A DNA stretch of 64,000 bases from Chroococcidiopsis sp. TS-821 (lineage in GTDB: Bacteria; Cyanobacteriota; Cyanobacteriia; Cyanobacteriales; Chroococcidiopsidaceae), in NCBI RefSeq assembly GCF_002939305.1, contig NZ_MVDI01000004.1:62001-126000 (forward strand), in the 5' to 3' direction. Positions 31,838 through 45,260 of the stretch are shown here, piece after piece (position 1 is the stretch's first letter; each line of letters starts with the position of its first letter). The position numbers and the translations under genes are program-made. Below the pieces are notes generated by a model. The model did no database searches. It saw only the letters and a program-made list of their open reading frames with translations, and was not told the origin of the DNA.

Positions 31838-32433
31838 TTATGGCTTTAATATCATAGCAAATTATTTTACTAACGCAATAACCTCTACTCTGGCGATTGC
31901 TGTCGGACTTTATTCCTACTATACGCAATACTGCTAAGTTGCGTACTGAATTGGAGATACAGACAATCAATGAAAGTGGCGATCGCGCTCATTAATTGCG
32001 TTTCTTGGGTACTTTCATTAAGTTAATCTCGCAACCGTTTAGAAGTTGCGATCGACAAGTGTCGATGATGTAGTTCATTTCACGCGCGCAATATCTAGGA
32101 TATTTTTGGAGATTGCTGTGTTGAATGGCTACAAATTTAGCACGGCACTCGTTATATCAATTATATAAATGATGCTAAGTTTTTATTCATTGTTACTTCT
32201 TTGTCACCGCATAATCATCAAGTATTCGAGTGATAACAATAAGTTTATTTTTATTATTTTCTTTAAAGAAAAAACAGATTATTATATAGATTAATCTCTA
32301 TACAAACCCTAAAAAAATATTAATTGTAAAGTTATAAATTGGTTTATTAAATTGTGAGAATTTTTGCTGACTTATTAAGAAATAAGAGATAAAAAAAAGT
32401 TAATAAAGTGCTCAACTTTGTGGAGGACAGCAA
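31838..32433. other. Leader region of the allophycocyanin pair
   Basis: About 600 AT-rich bases between tRNA-Leu and the first allophycocyanin gene. It contains no convincing ORF. The last 150 bases are strongly AT-rich and end in a strong Shine-Dalgarno (GGAGGA, about 32421-32426). A long 5' UTR with light or redox regulation would fit, but no specific operator is recognised. Confidence 0.5.
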
Positions 32434-32910
32434 ATGAGCATAGTAGCACAAGTAATCGCTCAATCTGATGAAGCCAATCGTTTTTTGACTAATACGGAGC
32501 TCGATAAGCTACAAGATTTTTTCAGAACAGGAGAACAGCGATTAAAAGTTGCTCAGATCTTGACACAAAATGAACAAAAAATCGTGCAAGAAGGCAGCCG
32601 CCGCTTTTGGCAGGTCGTTCCGAATACTCCAAGTAATAGCGGCGATCCCAAAAAAACAGCATTATGTCAACGAGATCAAAGTTGGTATTTACGATTAATT
32701 ACCTACGCTGTTTTGGCAGGTAACATGAAACCCCTTGAAGATATTGGTATAGATGGAATGCGAGAAATGTATACTTCTCTAGGTGTTCCTGTCAGTAATA
32801 TCGGTAATTGTATGCGTTGTCTAAAAGAAGTTGCAACAAACATGATGAGTAGCGAAGAAGCAGCGATCGCCAAGCCTTACTTCGACTATTTGATTCGAGC
32901 AATGTACTAA
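32434..32910 (+). CDS. apcD4: Divergent alpha-type allophycocyanin subunit (ApcD4-like)
   Basis: A 158-residue phycobiliprotein of the allophycocyanin alpha class with bilin Cys78 in LCQRD (Asp81 follows) and the family tail KPYFDYLIRAMY. It departs from ordinary ApcA/ApcD: the usual CLRD(M/L)DYYLR reads CQRDQSWYLR, the pre-Cys loop is about two residues shorter, and extra cysteines occur at 126 and 129 (GNCMRCLKEV). It is followed after 91 bases by a beta-type subunit and then by a convergent CP43-like gene. This three-gene set matches the low-light apcD4-apcB3-isiX cluster described in thermophilic Synechococcus, where these subunits form far-red absorbing assemblies. The ApcD4 name rests on this context plus divergence, not on a tree. 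Confidence 0.7.
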   Translation: MSIVAQVIAQSDEANRFLTNTELDKLQDFFRTGEQRLKVAQILTQNEQKIVQEGSRRFWQVVPNTPSNSGDPKKTALCQRDQSWYLRLITYAVLAGNMKPLEDIGIDGMREMYTSLGVPVSNIGNCMRCLKEVATNMMSSEEAAIAKPYFDYLIRAMY

Positions 32911-33001
32911 TTTTTTAAAGCGCAATTTTTTTGACACAATTCATTTTTGAGAAGTTAATTTTTCAGTAATCTTTTGAGCAGTTTAGTTTGAGAAGAAAGC
33001 A

Positions 33002-33487
33002 ATGCAAGATACGATTACTTCGCTCATTAACCCTGCGGATCAACGCGGTAAGTATTTAGAGACTGAGGAATTAGAAAAACTCAGACGATATTTTCAATCA
33101 GGTGAGTTACGTGTCAAAGCTGCATCGGCAATTAGTAATAATGCGGCTAATATTATTCGCGAAGCTGTAGCAAATTCGTTGCTGTATGGTGATATTACTT
33201 GCCCTGGTGGAAATATGTATCCTACCCGAAGATATGCAGCGTGTATCCGCGATTTAACGTTGTTTTTACGTTATGCTACTTATGCGATGCTAGCAGCCGA
33301 TCCTTCGATTTTAGATGAGCGAGTGCTTGACGGACTTAAGGAAACTTACAATTCATTAGGTGTTCCTATCCAACCTACGATACAAGCAATCCAGGCGATG
33401 AAAGAAGTAACAACTCGCTTGGTAGGTACTGAAGCAGGTGAAGAAATTGGAATGTATTTTGACCATATCTGTAATGGTTTGAGTTAG
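33002..33487 (+). CDS. apcB3: Divergent beta-type allophycocyanin subunit (ApcB3-like)
   Basis: The 161-residue protein is an allophycocyanin beta subunit: [14 protein letters not shown] with bilin Cys81, Asn71 at the position normally methylated, and [19 protein letters not shown]. The usual CIRDLDYYLRYATY is [14 protein letters not shown], changing three residues next to the chromophore. It is the second gene of a pair with the alpha-type gene at 32434 and ends with a terminator hairpin. The ordinary core genes apcA/apcB are expected elsewhere in the genome, so this is a specialised paralogue, most likely ApcB3. Confidence 0.72.
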
Positions 33488-33513
33488 AACGTTTTCTCCG
33501 AAGCCCCCTCTAG

Positions 33514-33538
33514 ATCCCCCATATACTGGGGGATTTTG
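33514..33538 (+). terminator. Terminator after the allophycocyanin pair
   Basis: ATCCCCCA (33514-33521) pairs with TGGGGGAT (33527-33534) around TATAC and is followed by TTTTG. It lies 27 bases past the apcB3 stop and in front of the convergent chlorophyll-protein gene. Confidence 0.75.
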
Positions 33539-33593
33539 TGCTTGGAAGCTTCTAGAATTGGTGTAGCTGAGGAAAAACCTCAGCACGCGTACC

Positions 33594-33640
33594 TCTGCTC
33601 TGACCCCTGACCTCTAGCTTCTTACCCCTGCACCTCTACC
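33594..33640. repeat. Degenerate heptamer tract overlapping the isiX 3' end
   Basis: The tract CTGACCCCTGACCTCTAGC and the following CTTACCCCTGCACCTCTACC belong to the dispersed heptamer family. It lies between the convergent apcB3 and isiX genes and encodes the last eight residues of the latter (GRGAGVRS). Confidence 0.6.
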
Positions 33641-35023
33641 ATATACGCCATATCTAAAGGTTTTCCCCTGCGAACTCTGGCGCGGATAGTAAGTTGTTTC
33701 GTAGAGTTTACGCGGCATGGACTGTGGATATTTTAGATGAGATTGCTCCTCAGTTGGGCTTTCGTAGAACGGGTTTGAAGTATGTTTGGGATAGCTAAAT
33801 TCGTAAAGAACTTTTTGCTTTGGCTGTGAGTTGATAAAACTTGGCTTTCCATGCGCGTGCGATGGATTATAAAGCTTATTATTGGCTGGTTGTTGATAAG
33901 CAAAAGCAGGTTTCTGCTCGAGCGCGGGGGTTTCGTAGAAGGTGTTTAAATTTGGCTGTGGCTGGTAACTAAAATGTTTTTGATACGCCAAGTTAGGATT
34001 GGGGAAAATCTCCGAGAAGGCGTTTTTCCAAGATTCTAAAACTGGCTCAAAGTAACTCGATGCTAACCCGAAATGCCATAATGAACCTTGAAGAACAACA
34101 AAGGCTAGATAAAAATAGGCGTTAGCCAACCAAATTCGCGTTGTTGGTTCGGGATCGCCTGGGATATAAAAGTGCGGTAAGAGAAATAAATTAAACTGCG
34201 ATCGCACTCCGTAGAAGTCTTCAGGATAGACAAGCGTATTCAAGCCGCAATAAAACGCTCCAGCGAATCCTGCAAGCGACAGCGCAAATAGCGAATACCC
34301 TAAAATTGCATTCCCAGAAAAGATGAATCGCCGCTTCACCCAATCAAAAGGTTCGCGGGAAAGATGCCAAATTCCACCTAAAATCAGCAGGATACCCGCG
34401 TAGATATGACCGCCAACGACATCTTCTAAATTGTTTACAGTGAATAGATGCAAAATGCGATCGCCAATTGTCAGTGGATTCAGCGTCGGGTTCGTAACAA
34501 CTCGCACCGCACCCAAATGAGCATCGTATAAACCACCAAAAAACATTGCTTTAGCGGCGATCAGTAGCGCGCCTAAGCCCAAGAAAATGAGGTGATTGCC
34601 TAGAATCAATCCTAACTTGTTTGGGTCATCCCAGTTAAAATGATAGCGACGTGCTGCTGGTTTCTCATCTTCTAAACTTTCAGCGACTTTAGTGCGGTGA
34701 AACCAAGTACCGAAAGCAAATACGAGCGATGAGACGATCAATACAATAGCGATCCGAAAATAAGGTTGGGTATGAATCACTTGATTATTTAATACGCCCC
34801 ATCCTTGAGTTGCTAAGCGTGGTAGCCAAAATAGCCGTTGCTCGTACATTGGTTGCGTTGGCGAGTAGCGCGCAATTTCCCACAAAATCCACGCACCAAT
34901 ACCAAAACAGACTATTGCGGCGTGTGCAATATGTGCAACCAAAAATGTTCCTGACAAATTAATAAATCGGGCATTTCCAGCCCACCAAGGATACTTAACC
35001 TTGTTTTTGCTGGATGTTTGCAT
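33614..35023 (-). CDS. isiX: CP43-like chlorophyll antenna protein (IsiX/IsiA type) with a long C-terminal tail
   Basis: Residues 1-340 form the six-helix chlorophyll-binding core of the IsiA/Pcb/CP43' family (WWAGNARFINLSG at the start, histidines in helices such as HIAHAAIVCFGIGAW and GGHIYAGILLILGGIWH, and FGVYSLFAL-like FLLPHFYIPGDPEPTTRIWLA). Its partner genes are the divergent allophycocyanin pair, which points to IsiX of the low-light set rather than iron-stress IsiA; no flavodoxin gene follows. Residues about 341-469 are an unusual tail rich in Tyr, Pro, Gln and Lys with repeated aromatic motifs (NTFYETP, NKLYNPS, KVLYEFS, NPFYESP, RKLYETT). The final GRGAGVRS comes from an inserted DNA repeat. 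Convergent with apcB3. Confidence 0.8.
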   Translation of the reverse strand: MQTSSKNKVKYPWWAGNARFINLSGTFLVAHIAHAAIVCFGIGAWILWEIARYSPTQPMYEQRLFWLPRLATQGWGVLNNQVIHTQPYFRIAIVLIVSSLVFAFGTWFHRTKVAESLEDEKPAARRYHFNWDDPNKLGLILGNHLIFLGLGALLIAAKAMFFGGLYDAHLGAVRVVTNPTLNPLTIGDRILHLFTVNNLEDVVGGHIYAGILLILGGIWHLSREPFDWVKRRFIFSGNAILGYSLFALSLAGFAGAFYCGLNTLVYPEDFYGVRSQFNLFLLPHFYIPGDPEPTTRIWLANAYFYLAFVVLQGSLWHFGLASSYFEPVLESWKNAFSEIFPNPNLAYQKHFSYQPQPNLNTFYETPALEQKPAFAYQQPANNKLYNPSHAHGKPSFINSQPKQKVLYEFSYPKHTSNPFYESPTEEQSHLKYPQSMPRKLYETTYYPRQSSQGKTFRYGVYGRGAGVRS

Positions 35024-37710: not shown

Positions 37711-39645
37711 TTACAACTTAGTACCGCACTCTGGACAGAATTTATTTGTGCTGACGTTTTTTGCACCGCAGTTACTGCAGTAGATCAGTTCAGCTACTGT
37801 TTCCTCTTTGGGGCGTTCGGGTAAGCCAATCATTTGAGCATTGCTCTTACCTGGGGCAACCATAGGATAGCAGTTTTCATCGCGGGTAACGTGAGCGTCG
37901 ACTAAAACTGGACCGTCATGCGCTAGCATTTCGGCGATCGCATCTGGCAATTCATCGCGAGTGCGAATCACCATCCCTTTGATACCATATGCTTTTGCCA
38001 ATAGCTCAAAATCTGGCATCGCCGGTTCCATATTTGAGGAAGAGTAACGTTCGCCATAGAACGCCTGTTGCCATTGACGCACCATGCCTTGCCAACCATT
38101 GTTGATAATAATTGTCTTGACATTAATGCCATAATGTGCTAAAGTCCCCAACTCTTGGAGATTCATTTGGAAACTTGCATCGCCACTAATACAAATCACT
38201 TGCTCATCGGGTAATGCGACTTTTGCACCCATGGCAGCAGGTAAGCCGAAGCCCATTGTTCCTAATCCGGCGCTGGAAATCCAACGACGCGGACCATTTT
38301 TCAAAAATTGTGCTGCCCACATTTGGTGCTGACCGACATCGGTTGTGTAATAGGCGTCTGGGGCTTGGCGACCAACCTCAAAAATCACTTCTTGCGGCGC
38401 GATACTGTGGTCGTAGTGTGGGACGACCAAAGGATATTCTTCGCGCCAGCGGTTAATGCGATTGAGCCATTCTTGCGTTTGATTGGGCGTACCAGAGATT
38501 CCCGCAGCGTGAATGCGGTGCAATAAATCCTTGAGAACGTTGCGTACGTCACCGACAATAGGTACATCGGGCGTGCGGTTTTTACCGACTTCTGCTGGGT
38601 CGATATCAATGTGAATGACTTTAGCGCGCGAAGCGAATTCATCCAACTTACCTGTAACGCGGTCGTCAAATCTTGCGCCAACACAAATCAGCAGGTCGCA
38701 TTCGCTGACTGCAAAATTCGCATATGCTGTACCGTGCATTCCCAACATTCCAACCGATAGCGGATGGTTTTCGTCAAATGCACCGATCCCCATCAGCGTT
38801 GTTGTTACAGGAATATGAAATAACTCAGCGAGTTGTTTCACTTCAGCGTGGGCATTTGCAGCGATCGCACCACCGCCTACATACAATAGCGGCTGCCGTG
38901 CCTGACGAATCAATTCGATCGCTTGCATAATTTGCCGCGGATTTCCCTTGACCGTTGGACGATACCCTGGTAGCTTAACGCTTCCTGGTTCGACAGGAAC
39001 GTAGTCAAACTCTTCTAAACCAACATCTTTCGGGACATCGATCAAAACAGGTCCTGGGCGTCCAGAACTGGCAATGTAAAAGGCTTCGGCAACGATGCGC
39101 GCCATATCTTTGGGATCGCGCACGACATACGAGTGCTTAACTATGGGTAACGTGATGCCGTAAATATCAGTTTCTTGAAACGCATCCGTACCAATAGCTC
39201 CGCGCGGTACTTGTCCCGTAACAACGACCATCGGGATCGAGTCCATGTGTGCGGTGGCAATTCCTGTCACCAAGTTTGTCGCCCCAGGACCTGAAGTCCC
39301 AAAGCAGACTCCCACTTTTCCTGTAGCACGAGCATAGCCGTCGGCTGCATGAGCTGCCCCTTGTTCGTGTCTTACCAAAATGTGCTGAATTCCGCCAGCG
39401 GCTTCGGCGCGATACAGTTCATCGTAAATTGGTAGAATTGCGCCGCCAGGATAACCAAAAATATGCGTAACTCCGTGACGCTTGAGACTGTCAATTAGAG
39501 CATAGGCACCGGTTGCTCTTTTTGGTGCTTTAATCGGCGATGCTGAAATTTCGGGCTTCAGCCGAGGTTCAGCTTCTAAGGAGATATTGTTCGACCGCGA
39601 CTCTTCGTAGGGAACGCTTCGTGAATGCACTGGTAAGATCCTCAC
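37711..39645 (-). CDS. ilvB: Acetolactate synthase large subunit with C-terminal zinc ribbon
   Basis: Acetohydroxyacid synthase condenses pyruvate with pyruvate or 2-oxobutyrate in Val/Leu/Ile synthesis, using thiamine diphosphate and FAD. The catalytic Glu lies in [18 protein letters not shown], the ThDP motif is GDASFQMN...[12 protein letters not shown], and the core spans about 45-600. Two extras stand out: an N-terminal extension of about 44 residues and a C-terminal zinc ribbon, YCSNCGAKN...[10 protein letters not shown], with Cys623, Cys626, Cys637 and Cys640. The ribbon is not part of the standard enzyme. No ilvN gene adjoins it, so the regulatory subunit must be elsewhere. Confidence 0.93.
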
Positions 39646-41721: not shown

Positions 41722-41834
41722 CGGTCTTTAGAAGTAGTAGAAATATTCCGTGAATTTACTCTAGTCACCTTAAGCAGCTATACAGGAAACTTTAGAGACC
41801 CAGTTGCCGCAAGTTGTGCAGAAATACAGCTGAG

Positions 41835-44800
41835 ATGAACTCACCAATGAGCCAAGAGGTGAAAGTTAACACTCAAAGTTCATCACCAGACGAAATTGCT
41901 AGGCTACAAGCCCTTTACCAGTGCCATATTCTGGATACGGCTCCTGAAAAAGCTTTTGATGAAATTACGACCTTAGCTGCATATATTTGTCAGACACCTG
42001 TTGCCCACATTAGTTTGGTCGACGCACGACGCCAGTGGTTTAAATCGAAGGTGGGTATAACAGCGACAGAAACTCCACGTCGTTTTTCTTTTTGTACGCA
42101 TACTATCAGTCAATCGGATATTTTCATCATTCCAGATACGTTAGCAGATGAACGCTTTGCCACAAATCCATTTGTGACTTCAGATCCTTACATTCGCTTT
42201 TATGCAGGTGTACCTTTAACTACGGTTGAAGGTTACAACATTGGTACGCTATGTGTCATAGATTATGTTCCGCGAGAGCTCACTAATGCCCAAGTAGAAG
42301 CGTTACAGAAACTTGCGTATCAAGCTATGCAACTCATCGAGTTACGCCGAAATTTAGGAGAATTAGAAAGTTCTAAAACTCGACATCAAAAAAACAAAAA
42401 CAGTAATTCTTTTCTCAAAAATGTTGCTGGCTTTTTTGGCATAGCTTCGCTGATTTTAATTGTTATTAGCTTCGTTTCTTATCGAAATCTCAATGGATTA
42501 ATTCGTACTTATAATCAAGCAACAAACTCGCATGAAATTCTAGAAAAACTAGAAGCTGTAGTTTCCCAAATGAAAGATGTGGAAACGGGACAGCGGGGCT
42601 ATGTTATTACTGGTCAGGACAATTATTTAGAACCATATAACAAAGCTACTGCCTCAATTGCTCAACACCTCGAAGAATTAAGATATTTATTGGGAGGCGA
42701 GCCAAAGTATCAGCCGCAACTGAAAAAACTTGAGTCACTTATTCAGCAAAGAATTGCTTTCAGTCAATCTGTAATTGACGCGCGAAGAAAATTTGACTTT
42801 GAAACAGCAAGACAGTTAACACTCTCAGGTCGCGGTAAACATCTCATGGATGAAATTCGCCAAATTATCCATGAAATTGAACAGCAAGAAAACGCAATTT
42901 TACAGCAGCGATCGCGTAAGGCACGAACAAACTCTTACTTGACAGTTTCGGCTTTTACGACTGGAATTTTACTTAATTTTTGCCTGCTTAGTGGAGTATA
43001 TTATCTTACATATCGCGAGATTCATAAGCGCCAGCGAACTGAACTGATTCTCGAACAAGAACGTGACTTTACCTCAGCAGTACTTAATACAAGCGGTGCA
43101 TTAGTTCTCGTGACAGATACTCAAGGTAAGATTGTTCGTTTTAATCAAGCTTGTGAAAAGTTAACAGGTTATCTTTTTAGTGAAGTTAGAGATAAAATTT
43201 TTTGGGATTTGGTTATTCCTCCAGAAGATGTGGCGCAAGCGATCGCGTTATTTCGCCAAGTACAAACTGAGTTTCCGCAGCAATGTGAAAGTTATTGGAA
43301 AACCAAGAATGGCGATCGCCGCTTAATTGCTTGGTCGAATACAACACTTCTTGATGCGGATGGAGTCGTCGAATATATTATCAGTACTGGTATCGACATT
43401 ACCGAGCAAAAGCAAATTGAAGCAACTTTACGCCAAACCAATACGCTACAAACTGCGATTCTCGATAGTACAAGTTACACTGTTATTTCTACTAGTATAG
43501 ATGGAACAATTTGTACGTTTAATCGCGCTGCTGAACAATTATTAGGCTACTCTGCTGAGGAAATTATCGGCAAAACAACACCAGTGATTTTTCATGATAT
43601 TCAAGAAATCGTACAGCGATCGCAAGCGCTATCGGCACAGGGAATACACGTCCCTCTTGGCTTTGATGTGTTTGTCGCCTTAGCACGACGGGGAGAAATC
43701 GACGAACAAGAATGGACTTATATTCGTAAAGATGGTAGTCGCTTTCCAGTTTTATTGTCGGTCACAGCTTTACGCGACATTGATGGAAACATCACAGGAT
43801 TTCTCGGAATTGGCAGCGATATCACCGAACGCAAGCAAGCCGTTGAAGCCTTACGCACGAGCGAAGCTCGGCTGAATTTTACTTTGGAAGCTGCTCAAAT
43901 GGGAATATGGGACTGGGACATGCTAACGCACCAAGTCACTTTTTCTGAGCGGTTAGCATTAATCTTTGGTTTTCCGCCAGCTACTCGTTGTGCAACTTAT
44001 CAAGATTTTATTAATACTATCCATCTTGACGATCGCGCAATTGTTGAGCAAAGTATCGCCCGTGCAGTCGAAGGAGATGGCAACTATCAGGTTGAGTTTC
44101 GGATTTTTTGGTCAGACGGTACTATACATTGGATTGGCAGCCAAGGTCGGGTTTATTACGATGACACTCATCAAGCAACGCGGTTGGTGGGTGTATCGAT
44201 GGATATCACCGAACGCAAACGGACAGAACAAGCACTACAGCAAGCAAATGCAAAGTTAACTGGTTGGGTGCGCGAATTAGAAGAACGTAACCGCGAAATT
44301 ACGTTACTCGGCGAGATGAGCGAGATTTTACAAGCCTGTGAAACTGTAGAAGAAGCCTACAAAACTTTACCCAGTTTAGTGCAACCTTTGTTTCCAAATT
44401 TATCGGGCGGCATTTTTCTGATTAGTGCCTCTCGGAATATAGTAGAAGCAGTGGCAACGTGGGGTAGTATTTCTAGCAGCCACGTGCTATTTAAATCAGA
44501 TGATTGCTGGGCGCTGCGACGCGGGAGATTGCATTACGTCGAGAACACGCACGCAGGTTTAGTGTGTCAACATCTCGATGGCACTAGCGCAACTGTTGAA
44601 TATCTCTGCGTACCAATGATGGCGCAGGGTGAAGCTTTGGGGTTATTGCATTTGAGTTGTTCAGAATTAGGGTTAACTCAAGGAAAAAAACAGCTAGCGA
44701 TTACAGTTGCAGAACATATCGGGTGGGCGATCGCTAATTTAAAATTGCGCGAGAAATTGCAAAACCACAGTATTCGCGATGCATTGACAAATTTATTCAA

Positions 44801-45260
44801 TCGCCGCTACATGGAAGAATCGCTGGAACGCGAACTCTTTCGCTGCGATCGCAAGCAGCAACCTTTGGGTATCGTTATGATCGACGTCGATCATTTTAAG
44901 CGCTTTAATGATACGTTCGGTCACGAGGCAGGTGATATTGTCTTGCGCGAAATTGGCTTGTTTCTACAAAAGAATATTCGGAAATCAGATATCGCTTGTC
45001 GCTATGGTGGCGAAGAATTAGTATTAATTCTCCCTGAATCTTCTTTAGACGTTGCTCAACAGCGGGCGGAACAAATTCGTGAAGGTGTTAAACATTTACG
45101 CATTCAACATCGCCAGCAGTTGTTGGGTACTGTAACGCTTTCGCTGGGAATTGCTTGTTTTCCGCAACACGGCTCAACTCCCGAAGCTTTAATTCAAGCA
45201 GCAGACGCAGCGTTGTACCGTGCTAAAGCTACAGGGCGCGATCGCGCTGTTATTGCTTAA
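41835..45260 (+). CDS. GAF-CHASE3-PAS3-GAF-GGDEF diguanylate cyclase
   Basis: A large sensor that should synthesise cyclic di-GMP. From the ATG at 41835 (MNSPMSQEV; an in-frame TTG lies 21 bases upstream) the domains are: GAF (about 15-175, KVGITATETPRRFSFCTHTI), membrane helix (about 200-220), CHASE3 (about 225-360, VETGQRGYVITGQDNYLEPY), second helix, three PAS/PAC units (about 400-800, each ending DITE.K), a second GAF (about 820-960) and GGDEF (about 975-1135). The active site is GGEEL, an accepted variant, with RKSD as I-site five residues before it. Two GAF and three PAS units suggest multiple inputs. No phytochrome-type Cys was identified. Confidence 0.92.
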   Translation: MNSPMSQEVKVNTQSSSPDEIARLQALYQCHILDTAPEKAFDEITTLAAYICQTPVAHISLVDARRQWFKSKVGITATETPRRFSFCTHTISQSDIFIIPDTLADERFATNPFVTSDPYIRFYAGVPLTTVEGYNIGTLCVIDYVPRELTNAQVEALQKLAYQAMQLIELRRNLGELESSKTRHQKNKNSNSFLKNVAGFFGIASLILIVISFVSYRNLNGLIRTYNQATNSHEILEKLEAVVSQMKDVETGQRGYVITGQDNYLEPYNKATASIAQHLEELRYLLGGEPKYQPQLKKLESLIQQRIAFSQSVIDARRKFDFETARQLTLSGRGKHLMDEIRQIIHEIEQQENAILQQRSRKARTNSYLTVSAFTTGILLNFCLLSGVYYLTYREIHKRQRTELILEQERDFTSAVLNTSGALVLVTDTQGKIVRFNQACEKLTGYLFSEVRDKIFWDLVIPPEDVAQAIALFRQVQTEFPQQCESYWKTKNGDRRLIAWSNTTLLDADGVVEYIISTGIDITEQKQIEATLRQTNTLQTAILDSTSYTVISTSIDGTICTFNRAAEQLLGYSAEEIIGKTTPVIFHDIQEIVQRSQALSAQGIHVPLGFDVFVALARRGEIDEQEWTYIRKDGSRFPVLLSVTALRDIDGNITGFLGIGSDITERKQAVEALRTSEARLNFTLEAAQMGIWDWDMLTHQVTFSERLALIFGFPPATRCATYQDFINTIHLDDRAIVEQSIARAVEGDGNYQVEFRIFWSDGTIHWIGSQGRVYYDDTHQATRLVGVSMDITERKRTEQALQQANAKLTGWVRELEERNREITLLGEMSEILQACETVEEAYKTLPSLVQPLFPNLSGGIFLISASRNIVEAVATWGSISSSHVLFKSDDCWALRRGRLHYVENTHAGLVCQHLDGTSATVEYLCVPMMAQGEALGLLHLSCSELGLTQGKKQLAITVAEHIGWAIANLKLREKLQNHSIRDALTNLFNRRYMEESLERELFRCDRKQQPLGIVMIDVDHFKRFNDTFGHEAGDIVLREIGLFLQKNIRKSDIACRYGGEELVLILPESSLDVAQQRAEQIREGVKHLRIQHRQQLLGTVTLSLGIACFPQHGSTPEALIQAADAALYRAKATGRDRAVIA

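Follow-up and report, generated by a model that had tools for sequence, protein, structure and literature searches.

A LoLiP-type far-red antenna cassette of divergent form in Chroococcidiopsis sp. TS-821, and a possible linker role for the tail of IsiX

A stretch of 64,000 nucleotides from the cyanobacterium Chroococcidiopsis sp. TS-821 (contig NZ_MVDI01000004.1, positions 62,001 to 126,000; here called the window) carries a tandem pair of allophycocyanin genes, apcD4 (alpha-type) and apcB3 (beta-type), with isiX, the gene for an IsiA/CP43-like chlorophyll protein, facing them tail to tail. Judged by sequence, this is a cassette of the low-light photoacclimation (LoLiP) type, already known from other cyanobacteria and found here in a divergent form specific to the window's family. 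The C-terminal tail of IsiX is a string of short tyrosine motifs. The reading that we favour, and hold to be moderately probable, joins these observations: a LoLiP far-red cassette in which ApcD4 and ApcB3 would form a nanotube and the tail of IsiX would be a motif-built tether to it.

Here, ApcD4 and ApcB3 are expected to pair, and their hallmark residues point to stacking as a far-red helical nanotube, not as a disc. IsiX would be a thylakoid protein of the IsiA type, with a body that docks at a photosystem, probably photosystem I. Its tail, long and probably flexible, would bind successive subunits of the nanotube through repeated tyrosine motifs. The tube would thereby be tethered, and its length perhaps determined. 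The antenna would be used at low light, and we infer the same acclimation system as in low-light Synechococcus. In the window's family, the body of IsiX has drifted, with the tail tyrosines kept, and would bind fewer chlorophylls.

Identity of the three proteins

Searches for apcD4 covered four overlapping samples. At E <= 1e-59, orthologues were found in 5 of 386 genomes sampled across the phylum, 17 of 388 from the order, 33 of 388 from the class and 10 of 40 relatives. They are set apart cleanly, the next matches in the phylum sample being at most 54% identical; a search of a plasmid collection with ApcD4 found no orthologue, its best match (54.8%) lying at a FaRLiP-like level (FaRLiP being far-red light photoacclimation). 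Forty-six further apcD4 neighbourhoods were taken, making 47 loci with the window. Maximum-likelihood trees were made by quick searches, with support from the Shimodaira-Hasegawa-like approximate likelihood ratio test (SH-aLRT) and no bootstrap, after removal of identical rows (alpha, 47 to 44; beta, 47 to 46). Two loci, L138 with a split isiX and L141 at a contig end, were left out of the IsiX counts. Numbers with L and G are our handles for loci and genomes.

The alpha protein falls in a single clade of 44 ApcD4 rows (SH-aLRT 100), apart from 8 ApcD1, 16 ApcA and 8 FaRLiP rows. The beta protein falls in a single clade of 46 ApcB3 rows (SH-aLRT 100), apart from 16 ApcB1, 4 ApcB2 and 3 ApcF rows. 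IsiX falls in a single clade of 43 rows (SH-aLRT 99) that stands next to IsiA, among 22 paralogue rows that include IsiA and CP43. The first-pass annotation, made from the letters of the window, had named the genes as LoLiP genes, and the three trees together with the residue tests support that assignment: the alpha protein does not group with ApcA or ApcD1, nor the chlorophyll protein with iron-stress IsiA. An ordinary ApcA/ApcB copy and a FaRLiP remnant are both ruled out by the trees, and iron-stress IsiA by the separate IsiX clade and the long C terminus.

Comparison with solved structures gives a less even picture. The closest solved relative of the alpha protein is 8ddy_A, a chain of the ApcD4 nanotube (E 6.8e-69), followed by the far-red-type alpha chains of 9i1r, 8or7 and 8uhe (ApcD5). 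The beta protein, however, scores higher against an ordinary ApcB (1kn1_B, 258.8 bits) than against 8ddy_B (243.9 bits). The tree and the residues are needed to place it, because similarity alone misleadingly favours the ordinary protein. Members of the ApcB3 and ApcD4 clades from genome G085 retrieve 8ddy_B and 8ddy_A as their top structure matches, and the clades are therefore tied to the solved nanotube. IsiX matches IsiA best (E 5.8e-103, residues 1-322). The structure matches listed span its first ~320-334 residues, and none among them covers the residues beyond.

Certain residues have been associated with the nanotube in the literature, which is cited below by PubMed Central number and drawn on in the parts of each text that were available. 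Alpha Ser11 and beta Thr4 are named for helix formation (PMC10038336), and alpha Phe58, a shortened BE loop, alpha Lys74 and beta Pro74 as hallmarks (PMC11614940). ApcD4 of the window has Ser11, Phe58, Lys74 and Cys78, and a BE loop three residues shorter; its ApcB3 has the residues listed in Table 1. Among the rows of the alpha tree, Ser11 is present in 44 of 44 ApcD4 sequences and is Ala in 32 of 32 others, and Phe58 and Lys74 are each present in 43 of the 44. The BE loop is three residues shorter in all 44, likewise in the FaRLiP rows; Phe58 and the short loop are also described as common to FaRLiP alphas (PMC10038336, PMC11614940). On the beta side, Thr4 is present in 45 of 46 ApcB3 rows, and Pro74 in 46 of 46, against Thr in 23 of 23 others.

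Gene order is just as regular. At all 47 loci, apcB3 lies directly 3' of apcD4. An isiX gene is full at 42, split at one, reduced to its tail at three, and met by a contig end at one. It is convergent with the pair in 8 of 8 cassette loci of the window's family (the window and L112-L118). In all 35 other loci where isiX was matched, it is co-directional with the pair.

The suggestion that this find would widen the distribution of the system does not hold. LoLiP genes were listed in 2015 for Gloeocapsa sp. PCC 7428 and Chroococcidiopsis thermalis PCC 7203 (Olsen et al., PMC4477158). The former strain is our G387 (6000 bases of its second contig are 100% identical to NC_019746.1), is of the same genus as the window in the grouping used, and has the same arrangement at L113. 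Its proteins are 97% (ApcD4), 99% (ApcB3) and 89% (IsiX) identical to those of the window, with no difference in kind. For Chlorogloeopsis fritschii PCC 9212, isiX was described in 2019 as opposed to apcB3-apcD4 (PMC6424891), a description that does not state head-to-head or tail-to-tail and that we liken to the window as a description, not by sequence. In C. fritschii, far-red light brought no increase of the transcripts (PMC4658448).

The tail of IsiX and its tail-only form

In the window, the 151 residues of the tail hold seven copies of a motif, hydrophobic-Tyr-[Glu/Gln/Arg/Gly], against 0.9 (standard deviation 0.9) in shuffled sequences. Over 45 tails, 42 from full IsiX and three from tail-only proteins, 286 motifs are found against 46.5 (standard deviation 6.4) in composition-preserving shuffles. 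Tail rows are, of course, related to each other, and because of this the tests on individual sequences weigh more; in 12 representatives, these give P from 5e-5 to 0.007. Outside the window's family, the usual spacings between motifs are 16, 22, 22, 12, 22-23 and 21 residues. All 43 aligned tails share five tyrosines (positions 29, 45, 67, 89 and 102 of the window's tail), Trp14 and Leu88 without exception; L154 and L156 were left out of the alignment because of their length. This is so despite an identity to the window of only 21-31% outside the family.

Scans of the tail against Pfam and NCBIfam returned no match. The maximum hydropathy of the tails over 19 residues is 0.97, against 2.1 in the window's IsiX body, and therefore no membrane helix was found in the tail. 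A profile of 34 tails, scored against at most nine candidates per genome, matched 5 of the 386 phylum genomes at E <= 0.001. These are the same five that have ApcD4 (four contributed rows to the profile, and G070 did not), and the other 381 gave none.

A cryo-EM study of the nanotube describes a C-terminal extension of 127 residues and suggests that it is a ruler threading the tube (Gisriel 2023, PMC10038336). The word "repeat" occurs three times there and concerns the helical unit, which repeats after seven protomers, or 72.6 Angstrom. Because that unit is seven protomers, one tail motif per protomer is thinkable. In the parts of the literature on IsiX available to us, we found no account of motifs in the tail, of tail-only proteins or of the histidine losses.

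At L154:10183-10812 (+), the tail contains a tandem duplication of 59 residues (38 of 40 identical), a natural length variant. The tail at L156 is unusually long (246 residues), with a weak internal repeat.

More drastic is the form found in G070, G542 and G547, three species of another genus. Here, the gene after apcB3 encodes 173-177 residues, in which approximately the first 28 residues of IsiX are joined directly to the tail. These tails are 77-82% identical to that of a full IsiX in G497. Among 13 genomes searched in the genus, three have the tail-only protein, one (G564) has a full-length IsiX and nine gave no match; the full-length copy in G564 suggests that the body was lost within this genus by an in-frame deletion. 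An assembly artefact is ruled out by three assemblies with different sequences. Against solved structures, the tail-only protein has no significant match (best E 0.17).

In G070, this gene is part of an antenna group (L122:1569-13008). First in order is a pair of phycobiliprotein genes, judged from their size and starts to be cpcB and cpcA. Next come two genes of rod-linker type, a further gene with a CpcD domain and a bilin reductase gene, then apcD4, apcB3 and the tail-only gene itself. These are followed by a histidine kinase with GAF and PAS domains, a candidate for the light sensor of the group, and by two response regulators. Between G070 and G542, apcD4 and apcB3 differ by five codons each, where 14.2 and 13.3 would be expected under neutrality, indicating purifying selection. 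For the whole tail-only protein, 20 changes stand against 24.5 expected (P 0.048), a borderline case.

The motif string, the co-occurrence of tail and ApcD4, and the tail-only form together speak for the tail being a separate module, a modular nanotube linker in line with the ruler idea of 2023. A bolder version, which we put forward tentatively and rate as somewhat short of even, makes the tail an autonomous linker that would template the ApcD4-ApcB3 nanotube at about one motif per subunit, with the body a mere membrane adaptor. That adaptor would have been weakened in the window's family through putative ligand loss. In the three species of the other genus it would have been given up entirely, the tail becoming a free linker within the group of phycobiliprotein, linker, bilin reductase and sensor kinase genes, and in another species tail length would have been altered by duplication of a motif block. 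EPYC1 and CsoS2 are assembly proteins that carry short repeated motifs in a probably disordered chain. IsiX may be likened to them by description: its motif string would, if its putative binding is real, bind many copies of one partner.

Divergence in the window's family and rival explanations

The family set comprises the eight cassette loci, with six distinct ApcD4 rows. In these six, residue 62 is Val or Ile and residue 92 is Ala (Val62 and Ala92 in the window), in place of the Cys found at both sites in 38 of 38 other rows. IsiX has Arg69, Leu95 and Tyr303 in eight of eight family rows, where all 35 IsiX rows from other families carry His; among 22 paralogues, His is found at these sites in 20, 22 and 19, respectively. 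We take the three sites to correspond to the CP43 chlorophyll ligands His91, His118 and His430. Their loss in the family suggests that its IsiX body binds fewer chlorophylls. Six other His columns (window residues 31, 109, 144, 206, 220 and 317) are kept in 43 of 43 IsiX and 22 of 22 paralogue rows. Identity of IsiX between the window and rows outside the family is only 43-48% (46% to that of G085).

The cassette genes of the family are nevertheless under purifying selection, strongly so for apcD4 and apcB3. Between the window and L112, nonsynonymous over synonymous divergence (dN/dS) is 0.013/0.519 for apcD4, 0.011/0.471 for apcB3, 0.039/0.486 for the IsiX body (ratio 0.08) and 0.117/0.719 for the tail. 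Reading frames are intact in all eight family loci.

Comparison with described systems puts this divergence in perspective. The LoLiP cluster of low-light Synechococcus/Thermostichus, apcD4-apcB3-isiX with a photoreceptor (PMC4477158, PMC10038336), shares with the window its genes, clades, hallmarks and long IsiX tail. It differs in having isiX co-directional rather than convergent and a photoreceptor kinase adjacent, and in keeping the two cysteines of ApcD4 and the three histidines of IsiX. The psbA-apcD-apcB-isiA2 operon of Halomicronema hongdechloris (PMC12279586, PMC6416890) has the same gene set, is LoLiP-like and has no neighbouring GAF photoreceptor. It differs from the window in that it is an operon with psbA and rises in far-red light, and in that Cys62 and Cys92, absent from the window's ApcD4, matter for its spectra: there, C62S altered the chromophore spectrum and C92S prevented a 728-nm component (PMC12279586). 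From IsiA, with which it shares a homologous body, IsiX is distinguished by its separate clade, its 151-residue tail and its apcB3 neighbour.

Several points weigh against the reading favoured here. By analogy with H. hongdechloris, ApcD4 without Cys62 and Cys92 may have an altered spectrum. Of the three histidine sites lost from IsiX, two also lack His in some paralogues (2 and 3 of 22). Tails evolve faster than bodies, with higher dN in nine of nine pairs that gave a value. The tail-only proteins evolve fast as well: over their tail part neutrality is not rejected (14 changes against 16.5 expected, P 0.16), and they could be remnants; they may be functional or they may not. Olsen et al. (2015, PMC4477158) described the extension as nearly 100 residues, with probably one extra membrane helix in the protein. 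An AlphaFold model of IsiX (from the window, L024 and L025 sequences) had a mean predicted local distance difference test score (pLDDT) of 39.3 and was discarded. No photoreceptor histidine kinase adjoins the cassette among the open reading frames (ORFs) of at least 200 residues between 22090 and 45260. An LcyA-type kinase is not treated as a strict requirement because published LoLiP-like clusters also have none adjacent (PMC12279586, PMC12214013). Last, the cassette is dispensable: ApcD4 is present in 8 of 19 genomes of the family and absent from 11. In one relative, G397, apcD4 and apcB3 were not found at the matching locus (L194), a natural loss.

There are also rival explanations. One is that the genes act exactly as they do in thermophilic Synechococcus/Thermostichus, with a 709-nm nanotube, a full chlorophyll-binding IsiX and induction at low light, the losses being neutral drift and the tail a mere spacer. 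The shared clades and helix hallmarks agree with this, as do the six His columns kept in all IsiX and paralogue rows, the window's included. We nevertheless consider it unlikely, although the most serious of the rivals. The same three histidines are gone from every family IsiX (8 of 8) and kept in the other 35, the same two cysteines are gone from every distinct family ApcD4 (6 of 6) and kept in the other 38, and a spacer does not need five tyrosines invariant in 43 of 43 tails.

A role proposed for H. hongdechloris (Chen et al. 2025, PMC12279586) leads to a different explanation. Here ApcD4-ApcB3 would be the far-red terminal emitter of an ordinary phycobilisome, and IsiX, merely adjacent, would be an antenna of its own that serves, for example, under iron stress. 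The IsiX search showed no canonical IsiA in the window genome, so IsiX could cover iron stress. This is improbable, however, given that the tail occurs in the same five of 386 genomes as ApcD4, and that it persists without the body next to apcD4-apcB3. In the thermophile, moreover, ApcD4-ApcB3 is bound to the membrane, and it is IsiX rather than phycobilisomes that co-purifies with it (PMC10038336, citing Soulier 2022). Least credible of all is the view that the cassette is decaying in the window's family and has ceased to work as an antenna. The isiX fragments that alone remain in G397, the 11 family genomes without ApcD4 and the conserved histidines lost from the IsiX body are what decay would leave. 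It is hardly compatible with intact frames at eight of eight family loci, with strong purifying selection on apcD4 and apcB3, or with a dN/dS of 0.08 in the IsiX body.

Locus, neighbourhood and significance

Table 1. Features of the cassette in the window, and related forms of isiX at other loci.
Feature	Locus	Positions	Strand	Remarks
Conserved region 5' of apcD4	window	32286..32433	+	five upstream regions aligned, from two genera of the family
apcD4, far-red alpha-type allophycocyanin	window	32434..32910	+	158 aa; tree clade, hallmark residues, solved-structure match
apcB3, beta-type allophycocyanin	window	33002..33487	+	161 aa; ApcB3 clade; Thr4, Asn71, Pro74, Cys81
Terminator-like hairpin 3' of apcB3	window	33515..33532	+	in gap between the two convergent units; consensus scan only
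isiX, whole ORF	window	33614-35023	-	469 aa
isiX C-terminal tail, residues 319-469	window	33617..34069	-	string of hydrophobic-Tyr motifs
isiX chlorophyll-binding body, residues 1-318	window	34070..35023	-	PF00421 over residues 11-273; IsiX clade next to IsiA
Tail-only IsiX beside apcD4-apcB3	L122	7621-8142	+	three species of one genus (with L124, L125)
Tail-only IsiX beside apcD4-apcB3	L124	5653-6186	-	
Tail-only IsiX beside apcD4-apcB3	L125	6842-7363	-	
isiX fragment, G397 matching locus	L194	8175-8525	+	opposed to the next
isiX fragment, G397 matching locus	L194	8642-8983	-	

The ORFs of the tandem pair and of the tail-to-tail chlorophyll-protein gene are all open, in the order and orientation first described. 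Upstream of apcD4, most columns of the alignment are identical in five of five genomes from ~32329 to the start codon. A terminator scan of the region gave 6 sites against 2.9 (standard deviation 1.9) in shuffles; a promoter scan gave no signal (11 against 8.6, standard deviation 3.3).

The first-pass annotation had also seen no other phycobilisome genes nearby, and searches of the genome with PF00502 and PF00421 agree, giving no further match on the contig. Its statement that flavodoxin is absent was checked on the scanned ORFs, a part of the 40 window ORFs of at least 150 residues; isiB was not searched window-wide. The genome has 16 PF00502 matches. In the trees, four of those other than the window pair come out as ApcD1, ApcA, ApcB1 and ApcF, one each. 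Four others are phycocyanin-like by low identity, and the remaining eight, weak or inside an ApcE-sized ORF, stand outside the trees. FaRLiP ApcD2, ApcD3, ApcD5 and ApcB2 were not found among the tree-placed matches; chlF and rfpABC were not searched. Besides IsiX and CP43, the IsiX search of this genome showed an IsiA-like gene (L160:7032-8090, -) followed by an IsiA-PsaL fusion (L160:5447-6952, -), both of which the tree puts with CP43 rather than with canonical IsiA.

Elsewhere in the window, a sensor of 1148 residues with GAF, CHASE3, PAS and GGDEF domains is encoded at 41814-45260 (+), ~8 kb from the cassette. The domain scan found no histidine kinase domain in it, and the protein ends in GGDEF. 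An acetolactate-synthase-like thiamine pyrophosphate enzyme with a C-terminal zinc ribbon is encoded at 37711-39645 (-).

As to how the nanotube is attached to a photosystem and how its length is controlled, the cryo-EM paper of 2023 went no further than to propose the IsiX tail as a ruler. Nature has supplied variants that are ready for use: the invariant tyrosines, the tail-only protein, the tail in which a block of motifs is doubled, and a family from which histidines and cysteines have been lost. These make the ruler or linker hypothesis directly testable, and would serve the tuning of far-red phycobiliproteins.

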